A stretch of DNA of 20,044 bases from a virus. Shown one piece after another: positions 861 to 18,361 of the stretch (the first letter of the stretch is position 1; each line of letters starts with the position of its first letter). The DNA lies in IMG/VR virus record IMGVR_UViG_3300021425_000248, positions 1-20,044 of that record; one strand, written 5' to 3'. The translations under genes and the position numbers were made by a program. The notes below the pieces were generated by a model, which was not told the origin of the DNA, made no database searches, and saw only the letters and a program-made list of their open reading frames with translations.

Positions 861-1946
861 ATGACATCGTTAATGGAAAGACTGGCTAAAAACTCAACGA
901 TCAAATCAACTGCGCCTATCATGGACTCAAAAGTCTTTGGTAAGAAAGATATGGCACAAACTTCTGTGCCTATGGTAAATGTCGCATTGTCTGGTCGACT
1001 AGATGGCGGACTAAGTCCAGGCTTGCTAATGTTAGCGGGTCCATCTAAACACTTTAAATCAGCGTTTGCTTTGCTAATGGCAGCCGCACACCAGAAGAAG
1101 TATAAAGACAGTGTAATTCTATTTTATGATTCAGAGTTTGGTACTCCTCCGGAGTACTTTCAGTCGTTTGGTATTGATATGGATCGTGTTATTCATACAC
1201 CGATCACAGATGTTGAACAGTTGAAGTTTGATATTACTAATCAATTGAATGACTTGAACAAAGGTGACAATGTTTGTATTGTTATCGATTCAATTGGCAA
1301 CCTTGCTTCTAAGAAAGAAGTAGATGATGCTATGGATGGTAAATCAGTGGCAGATATGTCACGTGCAAAGCAGATGAAATCTCTGTTCCGTATTGTGACA
1401 CCTCATCTTAATCTGAAAGATATTCCTTTGATCTGTGTCAATCACACGTACAAAGAGATTGGCATGTTCCCTAAAGACATCGTATCCGGCGGTACTGGTG
1501 CATATTATTCTGCCGATGCGATTTGGATTATCGGTCGTAGACAAGAGAAAGAAGGTCAAGAGATTAAGGGCTACCACTTTGTTATTAATATTGAGAAGTC
1601 TCGACATGTACGTGAGAAATCTCAGATACCAATTACCGTTACGTTTGATGGTGGTATTATGAAGTGGTCTGGACTACTTGAAGTGGCAGAGAAAGCTGGC
1701 TTTGTGCATAAGCCTAAAGTTGGATGGTACGAAGCACTCAATCCCGACACTGGTGAAGTCTTAACTGAGAAGTTAATGAGAGCAAAAGAGATCGTTGACA
1801 ATAAAGAGTTCTGGCTGATGATGTTTGAAAAAACTGGTCTTGCCAAACACATTGAAAACGTGTATACTATTGCTTCTAGTGCGGGTCTCATCAATGATGA
1901 CACTCAAGTTGAAATCGCTGATGAGGAGACAGTAGCGAATGATTGA
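861..1946 (+). CDS. uvsX: UvsX RecA-like recombinase
   Basis: This is the phage strand-exchange protein. It polymerises on single-stranded DNA and drives the recombination-dependent replication and repair typical of T4-like phages. The Walker A motif is GPSKHFKS (residues 60 to 67), close to the GPSKSFKS of T4 UvsX, and the Walker B region is NVCIVIDSIGN near residues 137 to 147. The VNHTYKEIGMFPKDIVSGGTG stretch around residues 193 to 213 corresponds to the DNA-binding loop region of RecA family proteins. At 361 residues it is slightly shorter than T4 UvsX. The C-terminus is acidic (ending EIADEETVAND), as is usual for regulatory tails in this family. The start has weak spacing after GGAG (850-853). 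The stop overlaps the helicase gene by eight bases. Confidence 0.96.
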   Translation: MTSLMERLAKNSTIKSTAPIMDSKVFGKKDMAQTSVPMVNVALSGRLDGGLSPGLLMLAGPSKHFKSAFALLMAAAHQKKYKDSVILFYDSEFGTPPEYFQSFGIDMDRVIHTPITDVEQLKFDITNQLNDLNKGDNVCIVIDSIGNLASKKEVDDAMDGKSVADMSRAKQMKSLFRIVTPHLNLKDIPLICVNHTYKEIGMFPKDIVSGGTGAYYSADAIWIIGRRQEKEGQEIKGYHFVINIEKSRHVREKSQIPITVTFDGGIMKWSGLLEVAEKAGFVHKPKVGWYEALNPDTGEVLTEKLMRAKEIVDNKEFWLMMFEKTGLAKHIENVYTIASSAGLINDDTQVEIADEETVAND

Positions 1947-3372
1947 AACCACCGTTCTTGCGGGACTCTTACATAATGAAGACTACATGCGAAGAGTTAT
2001 ACCATTTCTCAGTGAAGATTACTTCGGTGACTTTACTGAGAAAATGGTCTTCAAAAGTATAACACAATACATTGCAGACTATAATAGTATACCAACAAAA
2101 AGCGCCTTAAAGATTGCTATCGATGAAAAAAGCAATATATCAGACGACCAGTATACTACTATAGTTGAAACAATCGAAGGTTTAGAATATGATCCTAAAA
2201 CTGATTTAGAATGGATCGTTGATAAAACTGAGAAGTTCTGCCAAGACAAGGCAGTCTTCAACGCTGTACGTGAATCCATTCTTGTGTTAGATGGCAATCA
2301 CGACAACTTAGATAAGGGTTCTATTCCTGATCTATTGACTAAGGCACTCGGTGTGTCTTTTGATCAAAACATTGGTCACGATTTTCTAGAACAGCCCGAA
2401 GATCGATATGACTTCTATCACACAAAAGAAGACAAAGTAGAGTTTGATTTGGACTTATTCAATAAGATCACTAAAGGTGGTCTATCTCGTAAGTCTCTGA
2501 GTATTGCTCTAGCTGGTACTGGTGTCGGTAAAACTTTGTTCATGACCCACTGTGCATCCGCAAATCTTATGAATGGTAAGAACGTTCTATACATCACTAT
2601 GGAAATGGCAGAAGAAAAGATTGCTGAACGTATTGATGCTAACTTGCTGAATACCACTATTGATGCCTTGCAAGAGATACCTAAAGATGTGTATATGAAG
2701 CGAGTTGGTCGTGTCAAAGGTAAGACCACTGGTAAGTTGATTGTCAAAGAGTATCCAACTGCAAGTGCTGGCTCTGCACATTTTAGACATCTTTTGAACG
2801 AATTAAAGTTAAAAAAGAACTTTCAACCAGATATCGTGTATATAGATTATCTAAATATATGCACAAGTTCTAGATTGAGGGCAGGTGCTAATGTCAATTC
2901 TTACACAATGATTAAAGCAATTGCAGAAGAGTTACGTGGTTTAGCAGTAGAGTTTAATGTGCCAATCTTAAGTGCGACACAGACAACCCGTACTGGCTAT
3001 AGTAGTTCAGATTTGAACTTAGAAGATACTTCTGAATCGTTCGGTCTACCTGCTACTGCTGACTTTATGTTTGGCTTAATCTCAACTGAAGAGTTAGAGG
3101 GTCTAGGTCAACTTATGGTAAAGCAATTGAAAAACAGATGGGGCGACACAAACTATCTGAAACGTTTTGTAATTGGAATTGATCGATCTAAGATGAAATT
3201 GTTTGATGCTGAAGATTCGGCACAAGACTTAGTTGATGATACTCCTGTTGCAGACAAAGGTAACTTTGCTAGTCGCATGAAAGAAGAGCGAAAAGAGGGT
3301 AATGACGATAGTGTTATATCGTACAGAAAAAGAACCGGAGACAAAAAACCAAACTTCGGTGGATTTAAATAA
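1939..3372 (+). CDS. 41: Replicative DNA helicase, T4 gp41-like (DnaB family)
   Basis: This is the hexameric helicase that unwinds the lagging-strand template and works with primase gp61; the start of that gene lies at the right end of this window. The protein has 477 residues. The N-terminal DnaB-like helical domain spans about residues 1 to 140. The RecA-like motor has Walker A AGTGVGKT (192 to 199), an ITMEMAEEKIAERIDANLL helicase segment, Walker B PDIVYIDYLN (297 to 306) and the ILSATQTTR motif near 344 to 351. The C-terminus is charged and probably disordered. The start lies inside the end of uvsX, so the two are probably translated together. No SD is needed to decide the start because the upstream frame is short. 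Confidence 0.96.
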   Translation: MIETTVLAGLLHNEDYMRRVIPFLSEDYFGDFTEKMVFKSITQYIADYNSIPTKSALKIAIDEKSNISDDQYTTIVETIEGLEYDPKTDLEWIVDKTEKFCQDKAVFNAVRESILVLDGNHDNLDKGSIPDLLTKALGVSFDQNIGHDFLEQPEDRYDFYHTKEDKVEFDLDLFNKITKGGLSRKSLSIALAGTGVGKTLFMTHCASANLMNGKNVLYITMEMAEEKIAERIDANLLNTTIDALQEIPKDVYMKRVGRVKGKTTGKLIVKEYPTASAGSAHFRHLLNELKLKKNFQPDIVYIDYLNICTSSRLRAGANVNSYTMIKAIAEELRGLAVEFNVPILSATQTTRTGYSSSDLNLEDTSESFGLPATADFMFGLISTEELEGLGQLMVKQLKNRWGDTNYLKRFVIGIDRSKMKLFDAEDSAQDLVDDTPVADKGNFASRMKEERKEGNDDSVISYRKRTGDKKPNFGGFK

Positions 3373-4000: not shown

Positions 4001-4426
4001 ATGGCATACAGTAAGCAAGTATTAGATCATTATGAGAATCCCAGAAATGTCGGCAAGATGGACGAGAACGATCCTAATGTAGGCACTGGTATGGTTGGAG
4101 CACCTGCATGTGGAGACGTTATGCGACTTCAAATTAAGGTAGAAAACAACATTATTACTGATGCCAAGTTTAAGACTTATGGATGCGGTAGTGCTATTGC
4201 GTCTTCTAGTCTTCTGACTGAGTGGGTCAAAGGCATGAATCTTGAGGATGCAAGTCAGGTTAAGAATACACAACTAGCCGAAGAACTTGCTCTCCCACCA
4301 GTAAAGATTCACTGTTCAGTCCTTGCAGAAGATGCTATAAAGACTGCCGTAAAAGATTATCAGACGAAAGTTAGTAAGGAATCTGCCCAAAAGAAAAGGC
4401 AACCAAAAGTTGCCTTCTCTAAATAG
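4001..4426 (+). CDS. iscU: IscU iron-sulphur cluster scaffold protein
   Basis: The product is very close to bacterial IscU, the scaffold on which IscS and its partners build [2Fe-2S] clusters before transfer to target proteins. All key residues are present: C37 and D39 (PACGD), C62 (YGCGSAIASSS), H104 and C105 (KIHCS). The HscA chaperone recognition motif LPPVK (98 to 102) and the opening MAYSKQVLDHYENPRNVG are near identical to the E. coli type as I recall it. The body is full length to about residue 122. After it comes a basic tail (KVSKESAQKKRQPKVAFSK) not expected in cellular IscU, and its last codons overlap a terminator-like hairpin. No iscS, iscA or hscA is near, so it would have to work with host partners. 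It is probably an auxiliary metabolic gene taken from a proteobacterial host. The ribosome site is AGAGGTG ten bases upstream. Confidence 0.95.
   Translation: MAYSKQVLDHYENPRNVGKMDENDPNVGTGMVGAPACGDVMRLQIKVENNIITDAKFKTYGCGSAIASSSLLTEWVKGMNLEDASQVKNTQLAEELALPPVKIHCSVLAEDAIKTAVKDYQTKVSKESAQKKRQPKVAFSK
4396..4416 (+). terminator. Terminator-like hairpin inside the 3' end of iscU
   Basis: AAGGCAAC (4396-4403) and GTTGCCTT (4409-4416) form a perfect 8-bp stem around a CAAAA loop. Three more pairs are possible beyond one mismatch (AGA at 4392-4394 with TCT at 4418-4420). The tail CTCTAAATAGTTTG is only weakly U-rich, so termination may be partial. The stem lies in the codons of the extra IscU tail. 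Confidence 0.55.
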
Positions 4427-5690: not shown

Positions 5691-5698
5691 CATAAATA
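5691..5698 (+). promoter_or_regulatory. Late promoter, CATAAATA
   Basis: The box matches the late consensus at seven of eight positions and is followed by GTAG. It is 31 bases before the ATG at 5730, and a ribosome site (AAGAGG) lies between them. It would drive the nuclease/ligase-like group 5730-8816. Confidence 0.7.
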
Positions 5699-5729: not shown

Positions 5730-6785
5730 ATGAGTATGGAAGTATACGAAAAGATCGGAGAAAACCTGAACTCTATCGTAAAGATAAAGAATTATCAGGT
5801 TGCTCCTTTGTATCCAAAAGGTAAACCAGGAACAAACGACAAGTCTGTTCGTGAGTTTAGGCTTCAACTTATCAATAAGAATGACGATACAAGCCAAGCA
5901 GTAATTGATCATTTAAAGATGCAGTTACGCAAAGATACTAGTCTTGAGAGTGTGACTTTCAATTCCATATCTCCAAATAGTTCTAAGTTTCCTAGCTACA
6001 GTTTCACATTTAACGGTCTGAAGTTTGACATCATCATAGCAAGAGGTGCGAATGCAGGTGAAAAGTTTGAGGTAAGAACAGTTAAGACTCTTGACAACTA
6101 CTTTAAAACTCGCACAGACAATGAAACTTCTGAGGTCGTGAATATGATGAGTGAGTCATATGCTCCCTTTGCTAACGCAGAAATCGTTAGTGCTGTGCAG
6201 AGAACTGGTGCCACTAAGAAAGAAGGCATACCGATAGATAAGCTTGGTGCGATTATCGGTGATATTATACTGACTGATAATCAAGGCAACCCGTGGTACA
6301 TATCTCTCAAAGACATAAACGGTAATACATTCAGTTCGTATTCTGGAGCCGCTTCTTTGTTTGATAGAGAAGGTAATTTACAGCCCAATTCAGCTGGCGC
6401 TACCTTTCTAAAGACATTTGGAGTCGATCTAAACAAGGTCCAAGCTGGGTTTGATGAACGAGGTAATATAAATAAAGTTAGACCGAAACTCGCAGTACCT
6501 AGAGCCAACGCAAGAGAGATCGAAAAGATTTTCAATAGGGCATGGGGTATGAACTATTTTTATGTACGGCGTATGCGAACTGGGTGGAAAGTCTTCTGGT
6601 TAGGCAAAGATAAGCTGGATAAGTTATCTCAAAATATAAAGATTGATGATATAAGATATCCATCTACAAAGTCTAAGCAGATTACGATATTATGTAGTAA
6701 TACTGTTGAAGACTATGTAATTGAGTTAAGAAATTCTAAAGCTGGTGAATACCCAAACGATACTAAATTCAAGGTTAAAAAATGA
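5730..6785 (+). CDS. Possible restriction-like nuclease-fold protein
   Basis: This gene encodes a 351-residue protein. The part from about residue 95 to 200 resembles a PD-(D/E)XK nuclease core: GLKFDIIIARG, a helix with E112 (GEKFEVRTVKTLDNYF), then D178 in AIIGDIILTD, and the strand WYISLKD with S192-x-K194. The usual acidic residue before the lysine is serine here, so it may be an inactive or altered member. A C-terminal domain has FNRAWGMNYFYVRRMRTGWKVFW. Two starts are possible (5730 and 5736); I keep 5730. The stop TGA shares bases with the next ATG (ATGA at 6782). The nuclease idea is an inference from motif order, strengthened by the nuclease-like gene that follows. A DNA-binding structural protein is the main alternative. 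Confidence 0.6.
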   Translation: MSMEVYEKIGENLNSIVKIKNYQVAPLYPKGKPGTNDKSVREFRLQLINKNDDTSQAVIDHLKMQLRKDTSLESVTFNSISPNSSKFPSYSFTFNGLKFDIIIARGANAGEKFEVRTVKTLDNYFKTRTDNETSEVVNMMSESYAPFANAEIVSAVQRTGATKKEGIPIDKLGAIIGDIILTDNQGNPWYISLKDINGNTFSSYSGAASLFDREGNLQPNSAGATFLKTFGVDLNKVQAGFDERGNINKVRPKLAVPRANAREIEKIFNRAWGMNYFYVRRMRTGWKVFWLGKDKLDKLSQNIKIDDIRYPSTKSKQITILCSNTVEDYVIELRNSKAGEYPNDTKFKVKK

Positions 6786-7585
6786 CAGTCAGATTTAAAA
6801 GTTTTATTACCGAATCAGTCGGTGCAAAAGGACTAGCATACGAAAAGAAAGTTTTCGATGCAATGAAGTCTGCTGGAGTGAAGGGATTAGACGTTGGTAG
6901 TAAACCAGGTGCAGGATACAGTAATCAAGGCGCAGGTGATATTGAAGCATTATACAACGGTAAAGAATTCAATATCGAAATCAAATTAGACAAGAATGCT
7001 CAAATGGGCGGTACGTCTATACGAATAGATACATTAAATAAGACCCACACTTTAGTCAAACCGGATGCGGTAGACGATGACGCCATTCCATTTTTTATAG
7101 AAGCGGCAAAAAAGCAAGACAAAGCACTTAAAGAATGGGTCAACTTTATTCGTAAGCAAGAGCCAGTAGCATTTCACAAAAAAACACCATACACAATTCC
7201 TTTCGGTTCAGTCACTAAAGAAGCGTGGTCAGCGGCACAGAAAGCTGGCTATCTTGGTAAGATGAACGCAATCCAATCTTTCGACTCAGCAAAAACAATA
7301 GCTAAAGCATATAACCGAAAGAATGTGTATTATATACAAATCGGTAAAGCAGGTCTTTTTTATCTAGGAAGCAATCCCTTAAAATTAGATGTTCCAGAAT
7401 ATAAAGGATCTGTTAATATCGAATTTAGATTAGGACCATCTGGAAGTAAAGCAAGAAAAATAGAAGGCGAAGACTATCGTGTTGTTGGCGCTGGATATCG
7501 TTGTCAAGGCAGACTGAAGACTAATATCAAGTCTAAGTACAGTCTCGATAATCCCGAAGACGTAAAGAAATTATTTGGAGCATAG
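6782..7585 (+). CDS. PD-(D/E)XK nuclease-like protein with head-targeting-like leader
   Basis: This gene encodes a 267-residue protein. The N-terminus MTVRFKSFITESVG resembles the T4 capsid targeting leader (MKTYxEFIAEA), with a prohead-protease-like site I-T-E before S12. The mature part begins AKGLAYEKKVFDAMKSAG and contains the expected restriction-like nuclease residues: E21 in the first helix, D53 (GAGDIEAL), then E66 and K68 in FNIEIKLD. The order and spacing fit an active PD-(D/E)XK core, which cuts DNA with a metal ion. The remainder (about 90 to 267) is unassigned, with strands near YYIQIGKAGLFYLG and a basic C-terminal half. It overlaps the preceding gene by ATGA, and its end contains the ribosome site GGAG for the ligase-like gene. 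The nuclease call is probable; packaging into the head is an inference from the leader. Confidence 0.75.
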   Translation: MTVRFKSFITESVGAKGLAYEKKVFDAMKSAGVKGLDVGSKPGAGYSNQGAGDIEALYNGKEFNIEIKLDKNAQMGGTSIRIDTLNKTHTLVKPDAVDDDAIPFFIEAAKKQDKALKEWVNFIRKQEPVAFHKKTPYTIPFGSVTKEAWSAAQKAGYLGKMNAIQSFDSAKTIAKAYNRKNVYYIQIGKAGLFYLGSNPLKLDVPEYKGSVNIEFRLGPSGSKARKIEGEDYRVVGAGYRCQGRLKTNIKSKYSLDNPEDVKKLFGA

Positions 7586-7586
7586 A

Positions 7587-8816
7587 ATGCAACGCCTTTC
7601 ATCATTTTTGACTGAAGACAAAAACACTCACATGGAACACCTCGAAGACAACTTGCTAAATGCAGGTGTCGATGGAGCAAGACAGTCTATAAACTATCTA
7701 CGATCTCTACGTGATATGTTGGCAGGTAATTCTCGTTCCGCAGTTAATGTAACTGTCAAATGGGACGGTGCTCCAGCAGTGTTTGCAGGCATTGATCCTT
7801 CAGACGGTAAGTTTTTTGTTGCGAAGAAAGGCATCTTCAATAAGAACCCTAAGGTCTATAAGACTAAAGCGGATGTTGATGCTGATACAAAAGGTGATTT
7901 GAATATAAAAATGAATTTGGCATTGAAACATTTGCCATCTATGAATATTAAAGGAGTGATACAAGGTGATTTCCTATATGCGAAGAAAGATATTAAGAAA
8001 GTGGAGATTGATGGAGAATCGTATATTACTTTTCATCCTAATACGATTGTTTACGCTATACCAGCGAAAAGCCCGCTTGCTTCTAAAATCCTCAGATCCG
8101 AGATCGGTGTGGTTTGGCACACTAACTACAGAGGAAAATCTTTTGAATCAATGTCAGCGTCTTTTGGAGAAAAGATCGCAAGCAATCTCAAAGACACGAG
8201 GTCAGTCTGGTCAGTAGACGCAGTATATAAAGATGTAACTGGTAACGCCACAATGACAAAAACAGAGACAGATGCGGTTACTCTGCTATTATCAGCCGCA
8301 GGTAAACAATTCAATAAAGTAAACAAAGCAACGTTTGATGGCATAACAGAGAACGAAGAGTTGCTTACAAGAGTTAAAACATATCTGAACGTAAAAGTAC
8401 GTGCAGGTGAAAAGATTGCAGATCCTTCTAAGTTTGTTACTGACATGGTAAGCTGGATCTATGAGTACTACCAAAAAGAAATTGACAAACTAAAGTCCGA
8501 AAAAGGTAAAGCCGGTAGAGCGGAAAGACGAAAAGAAGTAATGGCATATTTTTCAAACGTTGACAAGTCTCAAATTGTCGCATTGTTTGAACTGTATAAT
8601 ATGATCGTTGAAATAAAACTACTCATTATCAGTAAGCTAGACAAAGCAAAGGCTATTGGCACTTTCTTAAAAACAAAAGATGGTTATAAAGTCACAGAAC
8701 AAGAGGGCTTTGTTGCAATCGATAGAATGGGTAAGAATGCAGTTAAGCTTGTAGATCGAATGGGCTTCTCAAAAGCAAACTTCTCAGATGAGTTCATCAA
8801 GGGCTGGCAGAAGTAA
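7587..8816 (+). CDS. KxDG ligase/nucleotidyltransferase-like protein
   Basis: This gene encodes a 409-residue protein from ATG 7587, six bases after GGAG (7577-7580). It opens MQRLSSFLTEDKN, again like a head-targeting leader with L-T-E at residues 8 to 10. The motif VKWDGAP (K58, D60, G61) matches motif I (KxDG) of DNA/RNA ligases and capping enzymes, where the lysine carries the nucleotide. Further conserved blocks are GVIQGDFLY (123-131, similar to motif III), ITFHPNTIVYAI, and IGVVWHTNY (173-181, possibly motif IV). A helical C-terminal half follows. I recall this family in marine T4-like phages as an uncharacterised domain (possibly DUF6267; not checked). Joining of DNA or RNA ends is the likely reaction, but substrate and activity are inferred. 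It directly follows a nuclease-like gene. Confidence 0.7.
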   Translation: MQRLSSFLTEDKNTHMEHLEDNLLNAGVDGARQSINYLRSLRDMLAGNSRSAVNVTVKWDGAPAVFAGIDPSDGKFFVAKKGIFNKNPKVYKTKADVDADTKGDLNIKMNLALKHLPSMNIKGVIQGDFLYAKKDIKKVEIDGESYITFHPNTIVYAIPAKSPLASKILRSEIGVVWHTNYRGKSFESMSASFGEKIASNLKDTRSVWSVDAVYKDVTGNATMTKTETDAVTLLLSAAGKQFNKVNKATFDGITENEELLTRVKTYLNVKVRAGEKIADPSKFVTDMVSWIYEYYQKEIDKLKSEKGKAGRAERRKEVMAYFSNVDKSQIVALFELYNMIVEIKLLIISKLDKAKAIGTFLKTKDGYKVTEQEGFVAIDRMGKNAVKLVDRMGFSKANFSDEFIKGWQK

Positions 8817-8873: not shown

Positions 8874-8881
8874 TATAAATA
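8874..8881 (+). promoter_or_regulatory. Late promoter, perfect TATAAATA
   Basis: This is an exact match to the T4 late consensus, 52 bases before the GTG at 8933. An 8-bp inverted repeat (8884-8891 with 8897-8904, TGTCAA/TTGACA core) lies at the expected start of the transcript and may form a leader hairpin. Confidence 0.8.
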
Positions 8882-10078: not shown

Positions 10079-10086
10079 TATAAATA
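10079..10086 (+). promoter_or_regulatory. Late promoter, perfect TATAAATA
   Basis: This is an exact late consensus followed by GTAC, three bases after the preceding stop and 57 bases before the 10143 start. The leader between contains GTAG/CTAC inverted repeats (about 10105-10133) that could form small alternative hairpins. The ribosome site is GAGGAAAA. Confidence 0.8.
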
Positions 10087-10142: not shown

Positions 10143-13100
10143 ATGCAAGACGATTCTATGGAAAATCCAGAGGCAAACTCTGGTGAAGAAACGACTTCTA
10201 AAAAGAAGACGGATAAGACAGAGAAGTCAAAGAAGACTTCGAAGAAAGTGAAAGATGAACTCTTAGTGAAGAACGCTATTGAGATCAATCCCAAGCTTGA
10301 AGAAGCTCCAAACAAGACAGTGGTTTTGGGTTGGGGCAGAATGAATCCAATTACTGTTGGACATGAAAAGCTAGTCAACAAAATCAAATCTGTCGCAAGA
10401 TCAGAAGCGGCAACACCACTGATCTATGTTTCTCATAGCCAAGACGCTAAGAAAAATCCTCTAGACTACGATGATAAGATCATGCTTGCAAAGAAAGCAT
10501 TCGGCAACATCATCGTAAAGTCCAATGCTCGTACTATCATCCAAATCATGCAAGAGTTGCAGAAGAAATTCTCTAAGGTAATTCTCGTTGTTGGACAAGA
10601 TCGAATCAAGCAATTCGATGAACTACTCAACAAGTACAACGGTAAAGACTACAACTTCGACAATATCTCTATTGTATCTGCTGGTGATCGTGACCCAGAC
10701 TCAGAGGGAGTTGAGGGCATGTCTGCATCTAAGATGAGAGCCGCAGCCTCGCAAGGCGATTTCAAAAAATTCAAAACAGGTCTACCTCGAAGACTCCAAT
10801 CAGATGCACAAGATGTATATGATATGGTACGTGGTGGCATGAAGATCGCTGAGATGCTAGAACTTGATGAAGCATTAACTATCCAACAAAGACGCATGAG
10901 AGCAATCACAATGCGTAAGTACAAGTCTAAGATTGCTCAAGGTCGCAGACGTATGGCTAAGAAAGCCGCTTCAATGGACAAGTTGAAGTTACGTGCAAGA
11001 AAGGCTGCCATTAAAATCATTCGTAAGAAAGTTGCTGGAAAGAAGGGCGAGAAGTACAATAGCCTATCTCCTTCTGAGAAGATGCTTATTGATAAGCGAG
11101 TGGCAACAAAGAAATCTGCAATCGACAGAATCGCAAAGAAGTTACTGCCAAAAGTCAGAAAAGCAGACCTTGCTAAACTGTCAGGTAAAAAGATAAATGA
11201 AGAGTTTGAATCATTCTTAATGAACGAAGAATTCACTGCACTGTTCGAAGAGCCTACTACAGGACAAGACCCAGATATCAAAGATAAGAAGGGTACACAG
11301 CCTGCAGTATACTACAAGGGTCTGGCAAAGTCAACTAAAGACAAGCGTGACGCACATTTCAAAAAGCATGGCAAAAAAGATGATGACGATAACTCAGCAT
11401 ACAAGCCTGCACCAGGTGATGCAGAAGCAGAGACTAAGCCATCAAAGCACACTAAGCGATATCATCAAATGTTTGGCAAAGAAGGCGCTGTTAAATTAGA
11501 TCGCCGCTTTCGTGCATTCAGACAACGCAAAGAAGAAGTTGAACTAGACGAAATTACTATTAAAACTGATGCGGAAAAACGTCTAAAGACTCAACACAAA
11601 GATGAGAGAGAAAACCTTTCTAAAGAGCATGAGCGTGAAATGGACGCACTGTTGACTAGAGAGTTACGTAAAAAAATTACAAGTATCAACAAAGAAGAGT
11701 TTGATACCGATGATGCTCTAATTCAGTTTATTGAAGAGACTACAAACGACATCTTTGATCAAGTATCACTTGATGAAGCAAAGGGCAATGAAGGTCTAAA
11801 GAAGAAAGCTGAAAAGTCTGGAATGCCACTTAGCATTCTACGTCAAGTATATAACAGAGGCATTGCCGCTTGGAAAACTGGTCATAGACCTGGTACTACT
11901 CCACAGCAATGGGGCTTTGCACGTGTTAACTCTTTCATTACTAAATCATCAGGCACATGGGGCAAAGCAGACGCAGACCTAGCCGCTAAAGTACGTGGCT
12001 CTTCTAAGAAAGAAGAGATAGAAGAAAAGTTAAAAGTATCTGATGGAGTAGGTGCATGGGTTAAGGATTTCCAAAAATCAGACGCACCACAATTTGCAGG
12101 TAAGTCAGATGAGAAGATTCGTCAAATGGCAATCGCCGCTTTCATTGATGCGAAACAAAGCTTAGAAGAAGGTGCGGTATCTCCTGCACAACGTGCCGCT
12201 ATTGCTATCTCTAAGAAAGCAAAAGCCGGCAAGCCTGGATACGACAGTGAAGGTAAATCTTTAAAAGAAAAAGATGATCCTTGCTGGGATTCCCATGAGC
12301 AAAGAGGCATGAAAAAGAAAAACGGTAAGCTAGTGCCTAACTGTGTGCCTAAAAACGAAGAAGTTTCAGTCGATGATATGTTTGAGGAATTCGTAGAGAG
12401 TAAAGATGCGGCTGAAGGATATGTGGTAAATAAAGTTAAGTCTGTTACAGTTAATAAAAAGGCATATCAACATGCACTGAAAACATTAAAAGATTTGATT
12501 ACTCGTAAGAAGAAAGAAGCCGGCGGTAGAGGCATGAAGCATGGATCTGGTTACTATGCTCAACAGATTGCCAAGACTTACAGTAACGTAGATCATAAAG
12601 TACTACACAATATGTTAGGTGAAAAGTATGTTATTGAAGTTGGAGGTGCAGGAGATAGAGGTACTGAAAAAGTTACTAAGCGTTACAAGAAAGATACTCC
12701 TGGTGAAAGCGTATCAGAGAGCGAAGGACCAGTGCCTAAGCCAATCTCTCAGATGACAGATAAGCAGAAAGAGGATCTAAGACACAAGCAAGCCGCAGAG
12801 CGTGAACGCAATCTACGTAGAATCAAGCAAGGCAATACTGAAGCAGAACGTAAGCGTAAAGCCGCTGATCGTGAGCGTAGACTAGCACAGAATATGAAAA
12901 AATTAAAGGATATGCGTAAATCTGATAAGTCTTGGGGTAAATCAAGCGCATTTGATCATCACGAGGAAGTAGAACTTGATGATTTATTCGAATCACATTT
13001 CAGCGAAGAAGTTACACAAAAACAGTTGAACGATTTAGAACGATTCGCTGATAGATTGCTTGACAAGTTTGGCATTGACGTAGAATTCACTAAGCATTTT

Positions 13101-13364
13101 GCAGATAGAATGAATGATGCCCGCAATAAGCCTGCTATCACAATCGCTGAACTTCAGAGAGTGTTTAAAAAGATCGCAAAGAACAAAGCGAAGAACATTC
13201 GTCAAAATCCTGACATTGAAGCAGTGCTTAAAGATATTCAGGCAGACTTGAACTTGCCTATCGTCATTAACTACGATAGTGAAAAGGACGAGTATGAAGT
13301 AGTTAACAAAACTATTATGCGTAAGAAGAACTTTGGTACATCAAGCAAAGTGATTAAGGTATGA
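10143..13364 (+). CDS. Multi-module protein with NMN-adenylyltransferase-like domain
   Basis: This gene encodes 1073 residues in one frame. A charged Lys/Glu-rich lead (1-55) is followed by a nucleotidyltransferase fold (about 57-235): GRMNPITVGHEKL (65-77) carries the (T/H)xGH motif, LVVGQDRIKQFDELL is the middle block, and GMSASKMR (192-199) matches the ISxSxxR end motif. It resembles NMN adenylyltransferase, which makes NAD from NMN and ATP; the true substrate is unknown. Next come separate modules joined by sites like L-D-E: an Arg/Lys-rich block (244-345), a basic module ending RRFRAFRQRKEEVELDE (375-470), a coiled coil (475-510), a GLKKKAEKSG module (546-620) that I recall as DUF5824, PAQRAAIAISKKAKAGKPGY with CWDSHEQRGMKKK (679-735), a helical YYAQQIAKTY module (760-850), a charged helix (870-925) and a C-terminal EFTKHFADRM module (951-1073). 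Probably a packaged, cleaved head protein. Confidence 0.75.
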   Translation: MQDDSMENPEANSGEETTSKKKTDKTEKSKKTSKKVKDELLVKNAIEINPKLEEAPNKTVVLGWGRMNPITVGHEKLVNKIKSVARSEAATPLIYVSHSQDAKKNPLDYDDKIMLAKKAFGNIIVKSNARTIIQIMQELQKKFSKVILVVGQDRIKQFDELLNKYNGKDYNFDNISIVSAGDRDPDSEGVEGMSASKMRAAASQGDFKKFKTGLPRRLQSDAQDVYDMVRGGMKIAEMLELDEALTIQQRRMRAITMRKYKSKIAQGRRRMAKKAASMDKLKLRARKAAIKIIRKKVAGKKGEKYNSLSPSEKMLIDKRVATKKSAIDRIAKKLLPKVRKADLAKLSGKKINEEFESFLMNEEFTALFEEPTTGQDPDIKDKKGTQPAVYYKGLAKSTKDKRDAHFKKHGKKDDDDNSAYKPAPGDAEAETKPSKHTKRYHQMFGKEGAVKLDRRFRAFRQRKEEVELDEITIKTDAEKRLKTQHKDERENLSKEHEREMDALLTRELRKKITSINKEEFDTDDALIQFIEETTNDIFDQVSLDEAKGNEGLKKKAEKSGMPLSILRQVYNRGIAAWKTGHRPGTTPQQWGFARVNSFITKSSGTWGKADADLAAKVRGSSKKEEIEEKLKVSDGVGAWVKDFQKSDAPQFAGKSDEKIRQMAIAAFIDAKQSLEEGAVSPAQRAAIAISKKAKAGKPGYDSEGKSLKEKDDPCWDSHEQRGMKKKNGKLVPNCVPKNEEVSVDDMFEEFVESKDAAEGYVVNKVKSVTVNKKAYQHALKTLKDLITRKKKEAGGRGMKHGSGYYAQQIAKTYSNVDHKVLHNMLGEKYVIEVGGAGDRGTEKVTKRYKKDTPGESVSESEGPVPKPISQMTDKQKEDLRHKQAAERERNLRRIKQGNTEAERKRKAADRERRLAQNMKKLKDMRKSDKSWGKSSAFDHHEEVELDDLFESHFSEEVTQKQLNDLERFADRLLDKFGIDVEFTKHFADRMNDARNKPAITIAELQRVFKKIAKNKAKNIRQNPDIEAVLKDIQADLNLPIVINYDSEKDEYEVVNKTIMRKKNFGTSSKVIKV

Positions 13365-13819
13365 AGAAGTTTAAAAACTTTGTAGCAGAACTTAAGGTCT
13401 ATGAGCCTAAGTCAACTGACACTCTCGGATTTACGAGAGATAAGATGCCACAAGTCCGATCGCAAGATTATGATGGACTGATTAAGCATCTGAAGAAGAA
13501 TAACGTGGGCGTCAGAAAAAGAAAAGTGCCTGCAAAGAGTTTGAAGCCTATTCAGAAAGAGTTTAACAAAGATAAGGTTGTAGGGGCAATCGCTAAGATC
13601 AAGACTCTTGGTCAAGCAAAACCTCTGATTGTGAGCAAAGATAACTATATCATTGATGGTCATCACAGATGGTTAGCCGCTAGAAATGTAGGTGGAGATA
13701 TCGATATCATGCAAGCAGATGTGAAAGTCCATGAATTATTAAAACACGTGTACAGCTACCCAAAGACTTTCACAAAAAAGATACACGAAGGGAATGAAAA
13801 TGTTTTGGAGAAAAAATAA
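13361..13819 (+). CDS. ParB/sulfiredoxin-like protein with head-targeting-like leader
   Basis: This gene encodes a 152-residue protein. It starts MKKFKNFVAELKVYEPK, very close in pattern to the T4 capsid targeting leader (MKTYxEFIAEA), with V-A-E at residues 8-10. Residues about 60 to 125 match a ParB-like fold: KPIQKEFNKDKVVGAIAKIK, then QAKPLIVSKDNYIIDGHHRW, where I98-D99-G100-H101-H102-R103-W104 is the hallmark box of this superfamily. Members bind DNA, hydrolyse CTP or act as nucleases; which applies here is not shown. A basic C-terminal segment follows. It overlaps the modular protein gene by ATGA. A packaged DNA-acting protein is plausible, and a regulator is the main alternative. Confidence 0.75.
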   Translation: MKKFKNFVAELKVYEPKSTDTLGFTRDKMPQVRSQDYDGLIKHLKKNNVGVRKRKVPAKSLKPIQKEFNKDKVVGAIAKIKTLGQAKPLIVSKDNYIIDGHHRWLAARNVGGDIDIMQADVKVHELLKHVYSYPKTFTKKIHEGNENVLEKK

Positions 13820-14679: not shown

Positions 14680-14916
14680 ATGATTAAAAAGTTCAGCGAC
14701 TTTAGAACAGAAGCAAAAGACTCAGGCGAATACGATAACGAAGGTGGTATGGCTAAGACCCAACTGCGTGGTGTTATTGCTGATGCGGATCATATGATCA
14801 AGATGTTTGGTGACGATGACAATTTGCCAGAGTGGGTACAAAACAAGATCACTAAGGCAGCCGATTATCTAAATTCTGCTCATCGATACATGATGAACAA
14901 GGATGGAGAAGAGTAA
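14680..14916 (+). CDS. Small virion-type protein with head-targeting-like leader
   Basis: This gene encodes a 78-residue acidic protein beginning MIKKFSDFRTEAKDSGEY. The first eleven residues fit the same leader pattern as 6782, 7587 and 13361 (F-x-x-F-x-x-E before A). The rest, NEGGMAKTQLRGVIADADHM and DDDNLPEWVQNKITKAADYL, is a module I recognise as a recurring piece of marine T4-like phage proteins, sometimes fused to other modules. It is probably a helical pair with a WVQ turn. No enzymatic motif is present. It lies four bases after the lysin and overlaps the next start (TAATG). A small internal head protein is the best inference. Confidence 0.75.
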   Translation: MIKKFSDFRTEAKDSGEYDNEGGMAKTQLRGVIADADHMIKMFGDDDNLPEWVQNKITKAADYLNSAHRYMMNKDGEE

Positions 14917-15134
14917 TGGCTTGGGTTACAGTTACAAATAACACAGAGTGGGAATACGATAATGCGGCAACAGCATCGGATACGTATTCAGACACTCCTG
15001 GTACTATAAGTGGTGGTATTAGAACGTTTACGTTACCTGGTGGTAACGCTAGACAGACATACATCAAGTGTAGAAAAACTAGTAACCCACCAGGAACAGG
15101 CGAACTAGACAAAACATATTGGGACGCACAATAA
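14916..15134 (+). CDS. Small beta-rich protein, 72 residues
   Basis: The product begins MAWVTVTNNTEWEYDNAATA and is rich in Thr, Ser and Gly, with strands such as IRTFTLPGG and QTYIKCRKT and an ending LDKTYWDAQ. The composition is that of a small beta-sheet structural protein. I recognise the MAWVTVTNNTEWEYDNAAT opening from marine phages but know no function. The start overlaps the preceding stop, with GGAGAAG just upstream, and its own stop overlaps the next start (TAATG). It has no leader, so it may be a virion or tail component rather than internal cargo. Confidence 0.7.
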   Translation: MAWVTVTNNTEWEYDNAATASDTYSDTPGTISGGIRTFTLPGGNARQTYIKCRKTSNPPGTGELDKTYWDAQ

Positions 15135-15490
15135 TGAAAAAGTTTAAAAAATTTAACGAAGATACAATAGATGCCGTATGTGAAGAGTGCGACATTTATG
15201 CAGATTTGGTTTTAGAAGCATCTGAGTATGAAGGAAGAAAGGTTACGCTGAACGACCCTTTCAGACTTCCCAGCGGCTCTAAAAGAAAATTTGGAGTGTA
15301 CGTTAAGAATGAAAAAGGTAATGTAGTGAAAGTGCAATTTGGTGATCCTAACATGGAAATCAAACGTGACGATCCTGCAAGAAGAAAGAGTTTTAGGGCA
15401 AGACATGGATGTGACAATCCTGGTCCAAAATGGAAAGCGAAATACTGGTCATGCTATCAATGGAGAGCAGGCTCAAAGGTCGATAACTAA
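15134..15490 (+). CDS. Small basic virion-type protein with possible leader
   Basis: This gene encodes 118 residues from the ATG that overlaps the previous stop (15134). It opens MKKFKKFNEDTIDAVCEECD, a weaker version of the leader pattern. A site V-L-E before A-S lies near residue 33 (LVLEASEYEGRK). The rest contains PSGSKRKFGVYVKNEKGNVV, KVQFGDPNMEIKRDDPARR and RARHGCDNPGPKWKAKYWSC, a conserved module of marine T4-like phage proteins with strands and two cysteines. It is basic enough to bind DNA. Function is unknown. The late promoter of the next gene starts on its stop codon. Confidence 0.75.
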   Translation: MKKFKKFNEDTIDAVCEECDIYADLVLEASEYEGRKVTLNDPFRLPSGSKRKFGVYVKNEKGNVVKVQFGDPNMEIKRDDPARRKSFRARHGCDNPGPKWKAKYWSCYQWRAGSKVDN

Positions 15491-18353: not shown

Positions 18354-18361
18354 TATAAATA
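18354..18361 (+). promoter_or_regulatory. Late promoter, perfect TATAAATA
   Basis: This is an exact late consensus. It lies 51 bases before ATG 18413 and is directly followed by a strong hairpin. The ribosome site is AAAGGTGA. Confidence 0.8.

Follow-up and report, generated by a model that had tools for sequence, protein, structure and literature searches.

Three consecutive genes on the plus strand of a 20,044-nucleotide virus sequence (IMG/VR record IMGVR_UViG_3300021425_000248; "the window" is this stretch at its full length), which is a portion of a T4-like phage genome, encode the proteins that we call p1 (351 amino acids, 5730..6785), p2 (267 amino acids, 6782..7585) and p3 (409 amino acids, 7587..8816). 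p3 belongs to DUF6267 (PF19782), a family that carries no assigned function, and the case that its predicted fold is that of a covalent nucleotidyltransferase, the superfamily of polynucleotide ligases and capping enzymes, is convincing. p1 combines a Pol-beta-like N-terminal fold with a domain resembling the restriction enzymes HinP1I and MspI, and p2 is a candidate PD-(D/E)XK nuclease. On balance, we consider it somewhat probable that these genes form a late operon in which swappable nucleases (p1, p2) accompany a constant ligase-type enzyme (p3), preloaded into the phage head for conflict at DNA entry. The initial annotation of this DNA had described a trio of two nuclease-like genes and one ligase-like gene; the structures predicted for p1 and p3 are indeed nuclease-like and ligase-like, respectively, and the assignment of p2 rests on its motifs and on sub-threshold matches to resolvases.

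Predicted fold and motifs of p3

The Pfam match of p3 to DUF6267 spans residues 13-400 (E 7e-111; 371.6 bits, the curated cut-off being 27). This family occurs in at least 465 sequenced phage records, almost all from cyanophages and mostly of Synechococcus and Prochlorococcus phages, and corresponds to the T4-GC71 gene cluster of cyanophages; no paper naming DUF6267 was found in the open-licence literature. In an alignment of 83 sequences the residues K58-x-D60-G61, G127-D128, E373-G374-x-V376 and K387 of p3 are invariant, so the KxDG ligase-like site that had been pointed out at K58 holds throughout, and the order of these residues matches that of ligase motifs I (KxDG), III-like (GD), IV (EGxV) and V (lysine). 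The cyanophage versions retain KxDG and EGxV. The spacing of 14 between E373 and K387 equals that between E312 and K326, the residues mutated in PDB entries of the Naegleria RNA ligase.

The model of p3 (pLDDT 90.7, pTM 0.86) is confident except at its start, where residues 1-11 fall below a pLDDT of 50, and it carries a helical insert at about residues 225-354. When this model was compared with the PDB by VIA-align, the best 50 chains listed were all ligases or ligase domains (Z 6.0-8.9), led by the Naegleria RNA ligase (Z 8.9 over 186 residues), T. brucei REL1 (8.4) and T4 Rnl2 (7.7), with DNA ligases ranking behind the RNA ligases; these Z values are middling, and values below 9 are weak by themselves, indicating likeness of fold rather than proof. 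It is the combination of an all-ligase match list with invariant motifs that makes the ligase fold convincing. Since the hhalign links were not significant, the assignment rests on fold and motifs. In a Foldseek search against viral models the confident matches were DUF6267 relatives, and RNA ligases appeared among the weak ones only. An NCBIfam match of p3 to an aminotransferase was rejected, its score being far below the cut-off. Short members of the family, of 270-301 amino acids, lack much of the helical insert and are minimal enzymes suited to structural work (L211 3576-4388, from P-SSM2; L213 3495-4400; L210 3495-4391; L numbers denote our loci).

The best independent argument for the ligase reading comes from a second family that takes the same place beside the same neighbours. 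Two loci, L082 and L111, have a p1 homologue, then another gene and then, in place of DUF6267, a leader-bearing ligase-like protein. Six aligned members of this second family share the motifs EKTDG, GEx, EGxVxHP (EGLVxHP) and RFKxT; most bear leaders, and they occupy the same syntenic position, where their neighbours are p1 homologues or different slot genes (the slot is the position upstream of DUF6267, discussed below). No significant profile similarity between the second family and DUF6267 was detected by hhalign. Each family is also found fused to a cytidylyltransferase, the second family in L219 and DUF6267 in the S-PM2 protein A0A0M6VVW4, with phrog_455 spanning both parts of the latter fusion. 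A role for the cytidylyltransferase in recycling NMN to the benefit of an NAD-dependent ligase is speculation.

Nuclease-like genes upstream of DUF6267

The AlphaFold model of p1 (pLDDT 90.6, pTM 0.68) has two parts. Residues 83-351 match HinP1I (VIA-align Z 9.0 over 174 residues) and residues 49-349 match MspI (Z 8.0 over 191 residues). In the model, D178 lies just ahead of a strand at 179-183 and S192-x-K194 ends the strand at 188-194, so that a serine occupies the canonical E/D position of the PD-(D/E)XK core. The canonical ExK glutamate is likewise missing from HinP1I and MspI. An alignment of 41 sequences, p1 and homologues 48-90% identical to it, shows D178 and S192-L193-K194 to be invariant, and for this reason "degenerate", the word first applied to this core, is the wrong one. 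Invariance, together with the replaced glutamate of HinP1I and MspI, identifies the SxK as a variant and not as decay: going by its predicted structure, p1 is not a decayed nuclease, and its C-terminal domain is of PD-(D/E)XK type with an SxK variant. In the cyanophage Sf-CH11 (L208) the slot protein is distantly homologous to p1 (hhalign E 2.8e-5, 271 columns) and has SVK where p1 has SxK. A PDB sequence search with the p1 profile gave nothing useful, and an NCBIfam match to Gins15 was rejected as far below its cut-off. A single scan covering 84,980 genomes of bacteria and archaea gave 590 pattern matches and no relative of p1, so that capture of p1 from a bacterial restriction system is not demonstrated.

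Residues 1-107 of p1 adopt a Pol-beta nucleotidyltransferase-type fold, matching GLD-2 (VIA-align Z 10.0 over 88 amino acids) and TUT7 (Foldseek E 7e-4, probability 1.00). The strand expected to hold the catalytic DxD reads R41-E42-F-R44, a placement made by aligned ranges and not by residue alignment, and R41, R44 and D100 are invariant. The model thus presents a domain that is probably non-catalytic, and whose role may be nucleic-acid binding instead of nucleotide transfer.

The p2 core described as intact, E21, D53, E66 and K68, proved invariant in 15 of 15 homologues, some of them just 21-26% identical. These residues, together with sub-threshold matches of the core to Holliday junction resolvases (7bgs, E 0.37; phrog_6591, E 0.14), make p2 a PD-(D/E)XK nuclease candidate. 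No profile similarity between p1 and p2 was found, and PADLOC returned no match for p1, p2 or p3.

Across loci, the gene directly upstream of DUF6267 varies and its kind is mostly constant. Six slot families have no mutual matches at a phmmer threshold of 1e-4, and each has an invariant D..(S/E)xK: p1 (41 sequences), p2 (23), N9 (13), N16 (8), N13 (7) and N33 (4). Further slot members with D..(S/E)xK are singletons or form small groups. A gene of a slot family lies within 2.6 kb in 91 of the 99 non-redundant loci having at least 1.3 kb upstream, a count in which the families other than p1 are assigned by motif only and the labels derive from the same loci that are counted, so that the slot is a pattern to test and not proof. 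Among the 59 non-redundant loci fetched with p3 alone, a subset unbiased towards p1 or p2, a nuclease-like slot gene is present in 50. In the remaining slots there is a HAD phosphatase, a P-loop kinase or an HD hydrolase (several of these proteins bear leaders), or no gene that could be recognised.

The slot HAD and P-loop genes fall in polynucleotide-kinase phrog families and therefore fit the end-healing partners that a ligase would be expected to have. They bear on an alternative in which the module is an RNA repair kit: p3, an RNA ligase loaded in advance, would at infection rejoin tRNAs or other RNAs that the host's suicide nucleases have cleaved, and the slot enzymes would trim or prepare the ends. 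That the best structural matches of p3 are RNA ligases (Naegleria, TbREL1, T4 Rnl2) is in keeping with this, and the Pol-beta N-terminal fold of p1 recalls RlaP, a Pol-beta nucleotidyltransferase that is found with phage RNA ligases (PMC7824862). The slot partners are, however, mostly DNA-type PD-(D/E)XK-like nucleases, which leave ligatable ends, and the altered DxD strand of p1 belongs to a domain that is probably non-catalytic. We regard RNA repair as an unlikely explanation, to be kept in mind nonetheless.

Other genes at or next to the slot may have functions of their own. Leader-bearing HD proteins (L171 7447-8001; L139 13803-14360), one slot member matching HD_4 at E 3.9e-17, resemble alarmone hydrolases and include a possible injected (p)ppGpp hydrolase. 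P-loop kinase or zeta-toxin-like proteins stand next to slot genes at L189 7193-8014 and L019 8796-9707, the latter with a clear leader.

Late promoter, head leaders and genomic setting

The three genes are tightly coupled: p1 and p2 overlap by ATGA, and the ATG of p3 lies one base past the p2 stop (this start, at 7587, is preferred to the TTG at 7575 of the mechanical ORF list). A T4-type late promoter, CATAAATA (consensus TATAAATA), occupies positions 5691..5698 on the plus strand, 39 nucleotides ahead of the p1 ATG, and serves the trio. Over the window as a whole, matches resembling TATAAATA are no commoner than chance, and the evidence for the promoter is its conserved position upstream of p1, not its frequency. 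Of 53 distinct regions upstream of p1, 37 have the pattern [TC]ATAAATA within 120 nucleotides, usually at 28-43 nucleotides from the ATG, compared with about 2% of random stretches and just 3 of 103 regions upstream of p3. Its conservation before p1 and rarity before p3 support a single late transcript predicted to begin before p1. The arrangement originally proposed, three consecutive coupled genes under one late promoter, is therefore upheld. Exact plus-strand, intergenic matches to TATAAATA also occur at 8874-8881, 10079-10086 and 18354-18361.

Co-occurrence across phages, on which the initial annotation had made its reading depend, was likewise found, in 10 distinct p1-p2-p3 trios and 38 distinct p1..p3 pairs. 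This bears on the possibility that the slot genes are selfish, freestanding homing-type endonucleases that sit beside DUF6267 and are functionally unlinked to it. Many unrelated nuclease-like families at one site would suit such elements, and freestanding homing endonucleases are abundant in phages. The spacing of -4 and +1 nucleotides is, however, identical in all the trios, the late promoter is conserved upstream of p1, many slot proteins bear leaders (homing enzymes need no delivery in the head), and the second ligase-like family adjoins the same kinds of gene. We consider this explanation very unlikely.

The reading as a head-preloaded pair draws on the N-termini of p2 (MTVRFKSFITE, 6782..6814) and p3 (MQRLSSFLTE, 7587..7616), both on the plus strand, which resemble the leader MKTYQEFIAE of T4 IPII/IPIII and end in an (I/L)xE cleavage-type site, as expected of leaders for capsid targeting and prohead-protease cleavage. 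In T4 the protease gp21 cleaves the internal proteins and Alt, the latter after ITE and LTE (PMC5694885); the internal proteins reach the prohead core via the leader and are injected, and an anti-restriction protein is among them (PMC3012670). Of the 105 distinct homologues of p3 in IMG/VR, 96 show the leader pattern. Over all loci, the motif stands at 366 of 5,475 plus-strand ORF starts and at 10 of 6,327 minus-strand starts, DUF6267 and p2 supplying a large share of the 366. The claim that p2 and p3 carry head leaders and p1 none was correct; the further suggestion that cutting and joining enzymes are delivered together can apply to p2 and p3 only.

Most cyanophage DUF6267 proteins have no leader and start, with MAKNTHLEHLED, near the predicted mature N-terminus of p3, the cyanophage M-A-KNTHLEHLED aligning with ..TE|DKNTHMEHLED of p3. 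Judged from these alignments, the leader is a detachable module. Slot family N9 behaves likewise: its L127 member bears a leader, and the one from the Stenotrophomonas phage DLP6 does not.

Late expression and leaders directed to the prohead core would also fit maturation of DNA inside the head, in which p2, with its weak resolvase similarity, removes branches and p3 seals nicks in DNA under packaging. Unlike housekeeping packaging enzymes, the slot families have been swapped repeatedly among relatives; leaderless versions occur in cyanophages, and T4-type phages have resolvase and ligase functions elsewhere. Such a role appears quite improbable to us.

In the rest of the window, a UvsX-type RecA with the T4 UvsX C-terminal domain (861-1946), a DnaB-type helicase (1939-3372) and a full-length IscU-like Fe-S scaffold (4001-4426; TIGR01999, 218 bits) precede the trio. 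Downstream, on the plus strand, lies a cytidylyltransferase-like protein of 1,073 amino acids (10143..13364; phrog_3041, E 4.6e-93; CTP_transf_like), followed by a gene for a GH19-type lysin. Within the cytidylyltransferase-like protein there are a DUF5824 segment and several sites of the FxxFxxEE type, and it is possibly a polyprotein that the prohead protease cleaves. A small protein at 13361-13819 has the leader MKKFKNFVAE and a ParB-like DGHHRW (TIGR00180, E 9.5e-5, far below the cut-off), and is possible head cargo. Two more short proteins have leader-like starts, MIKKFSDFRTE at 14680-14916 and MKKFKKFNED at 15134-15490.

Proposed role at DNA entry and likeness to known systems

For the conflict role we propose the following course. 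By analogy with the T4 internal proteins, p2 and p3 would be made late and drawn by their leaders into the prohead core, where the prohead protease would trim p2 after E11 and p3 after E10, and both would enter the next host along with the ejected DNA. Inside that host p3, RNA-ligase-like in its modelled fold, would adenylylate itself on K58 and seal polynucleotide ends, and the nuclease would cut a target that differs between phages. The purpose of the nuclease-ligase pair is the least certain part of the proposal; most likely it would serve a conflict at genome entry, as counter-defence or as an attack on host or competitor nucleic acid. We prefer a conflict role because nucleases that are repeatedly exchanged while the ligase stays constant resemble the outcome of an arms race. 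The variable slot favours conflict over housekeeping, without choosing among processing, attack and repair, the uses first suggested for the trio.

Several observations weigh against this proposal. Profile searches (a PDB sequence search with the p3 profile, and hhalign against T4 Rnl2) tie DUF6267 to no known ligase, and Foldseek of p3 against the PDB gave weak matches, none of them confident. No leader is present on p1, and when its 41 homologues were searched with a loose pattern over the first 60 residues, only 3 matched; since p1 and most cyanophage homologues of both partners are leaderless, head loading is dispensable for the module. Packing a nuclease together with the phage's own DNA requires that it be inactive or selective, and the scan of window proteins, which covered part of the ORFs, named no methyltransferase. 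The motif-based slot labels described above count on the same side. PADLOC returned no match for p1, p2 or p3.

More tentatively, we suggest a previously unrecognised and widespread virion-delivered conflict system of T4-like phages, consisting of a constant ligase-type enzyme (DUF6267 or the interchangeable second family) and an exchangeable PD-(D/E)XK nuclease, often D..SxK, in which the ligase would protect or repair phage nucleic acid against the phage's own or the host's nuclease. Nothing on a nuclease-ligase pair in phage heads was found in open-licence papers. The ligase-type reading, the rotating nuclease-like neighbours and the head leaders together give a core gene of marine phages a testable function, and the leader motif offers a route to listing other injected proteins from sequence.

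Parts of the module resemble known systems. Compared with HinP1I and MspI, to which its C-terminal domain can be aligned over 174 and 191 residues, respectively, p1 adds the Pol-beta-like N-terminal domain and has no methyltransferase partner among the proteins scanned. The p2 core residues E21/D53/E66/K68 align with the core of archaeal-type Holliday junction resolvases (7bgs) in a sub-threshold match, and p2, unlike 7bgs, has a leader and a long C-terminal region (about 190 residues). p3 shares with the Rnl2/Rnl5-type RNA ligases (T4 Rnl2, NgrRnl, TbREL1) the fold seen by VIA-align, KxDG, EGxV and the motif-V lysine; it differs in having no profile-detectable sequence similarity to them, in an insert of about 130 helical residues ahead of motif IV, and in a motif III that reads GD and not GE. 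As in phage RNA repair operons (ligase, PNK, RlaP), a ligase-like enzyme is found near HAD/P-loop kinase-like genes and a Pol-beta fold, whereas in this module the ligase-like enzyme is usually partnered by a PD-(D/E)XK-like nuclease and head leaders are present; DUF6267 is not given as a ligase in the passages of PMC7824862 that were consulted. With T4 IPI, IPII, IPIII and Alt, p2 and p3 share a leader of the type M-x-x-[FY]-x-x-F-[IL]-x-E, with ITE and LTE as in Alt, and in both systems the cargo varies between phages. Packaging of p2 and p3 is predicted from these leaders, and leaderless versions exist. The cargo here is nuclease-like and ligase-like, unlike the small inhibitors and ADP-ribosyltransferase of T4, which suggests that T4-like virions are able to ship working DNA- or RNA-processing enzymes and not inhibitors alone.

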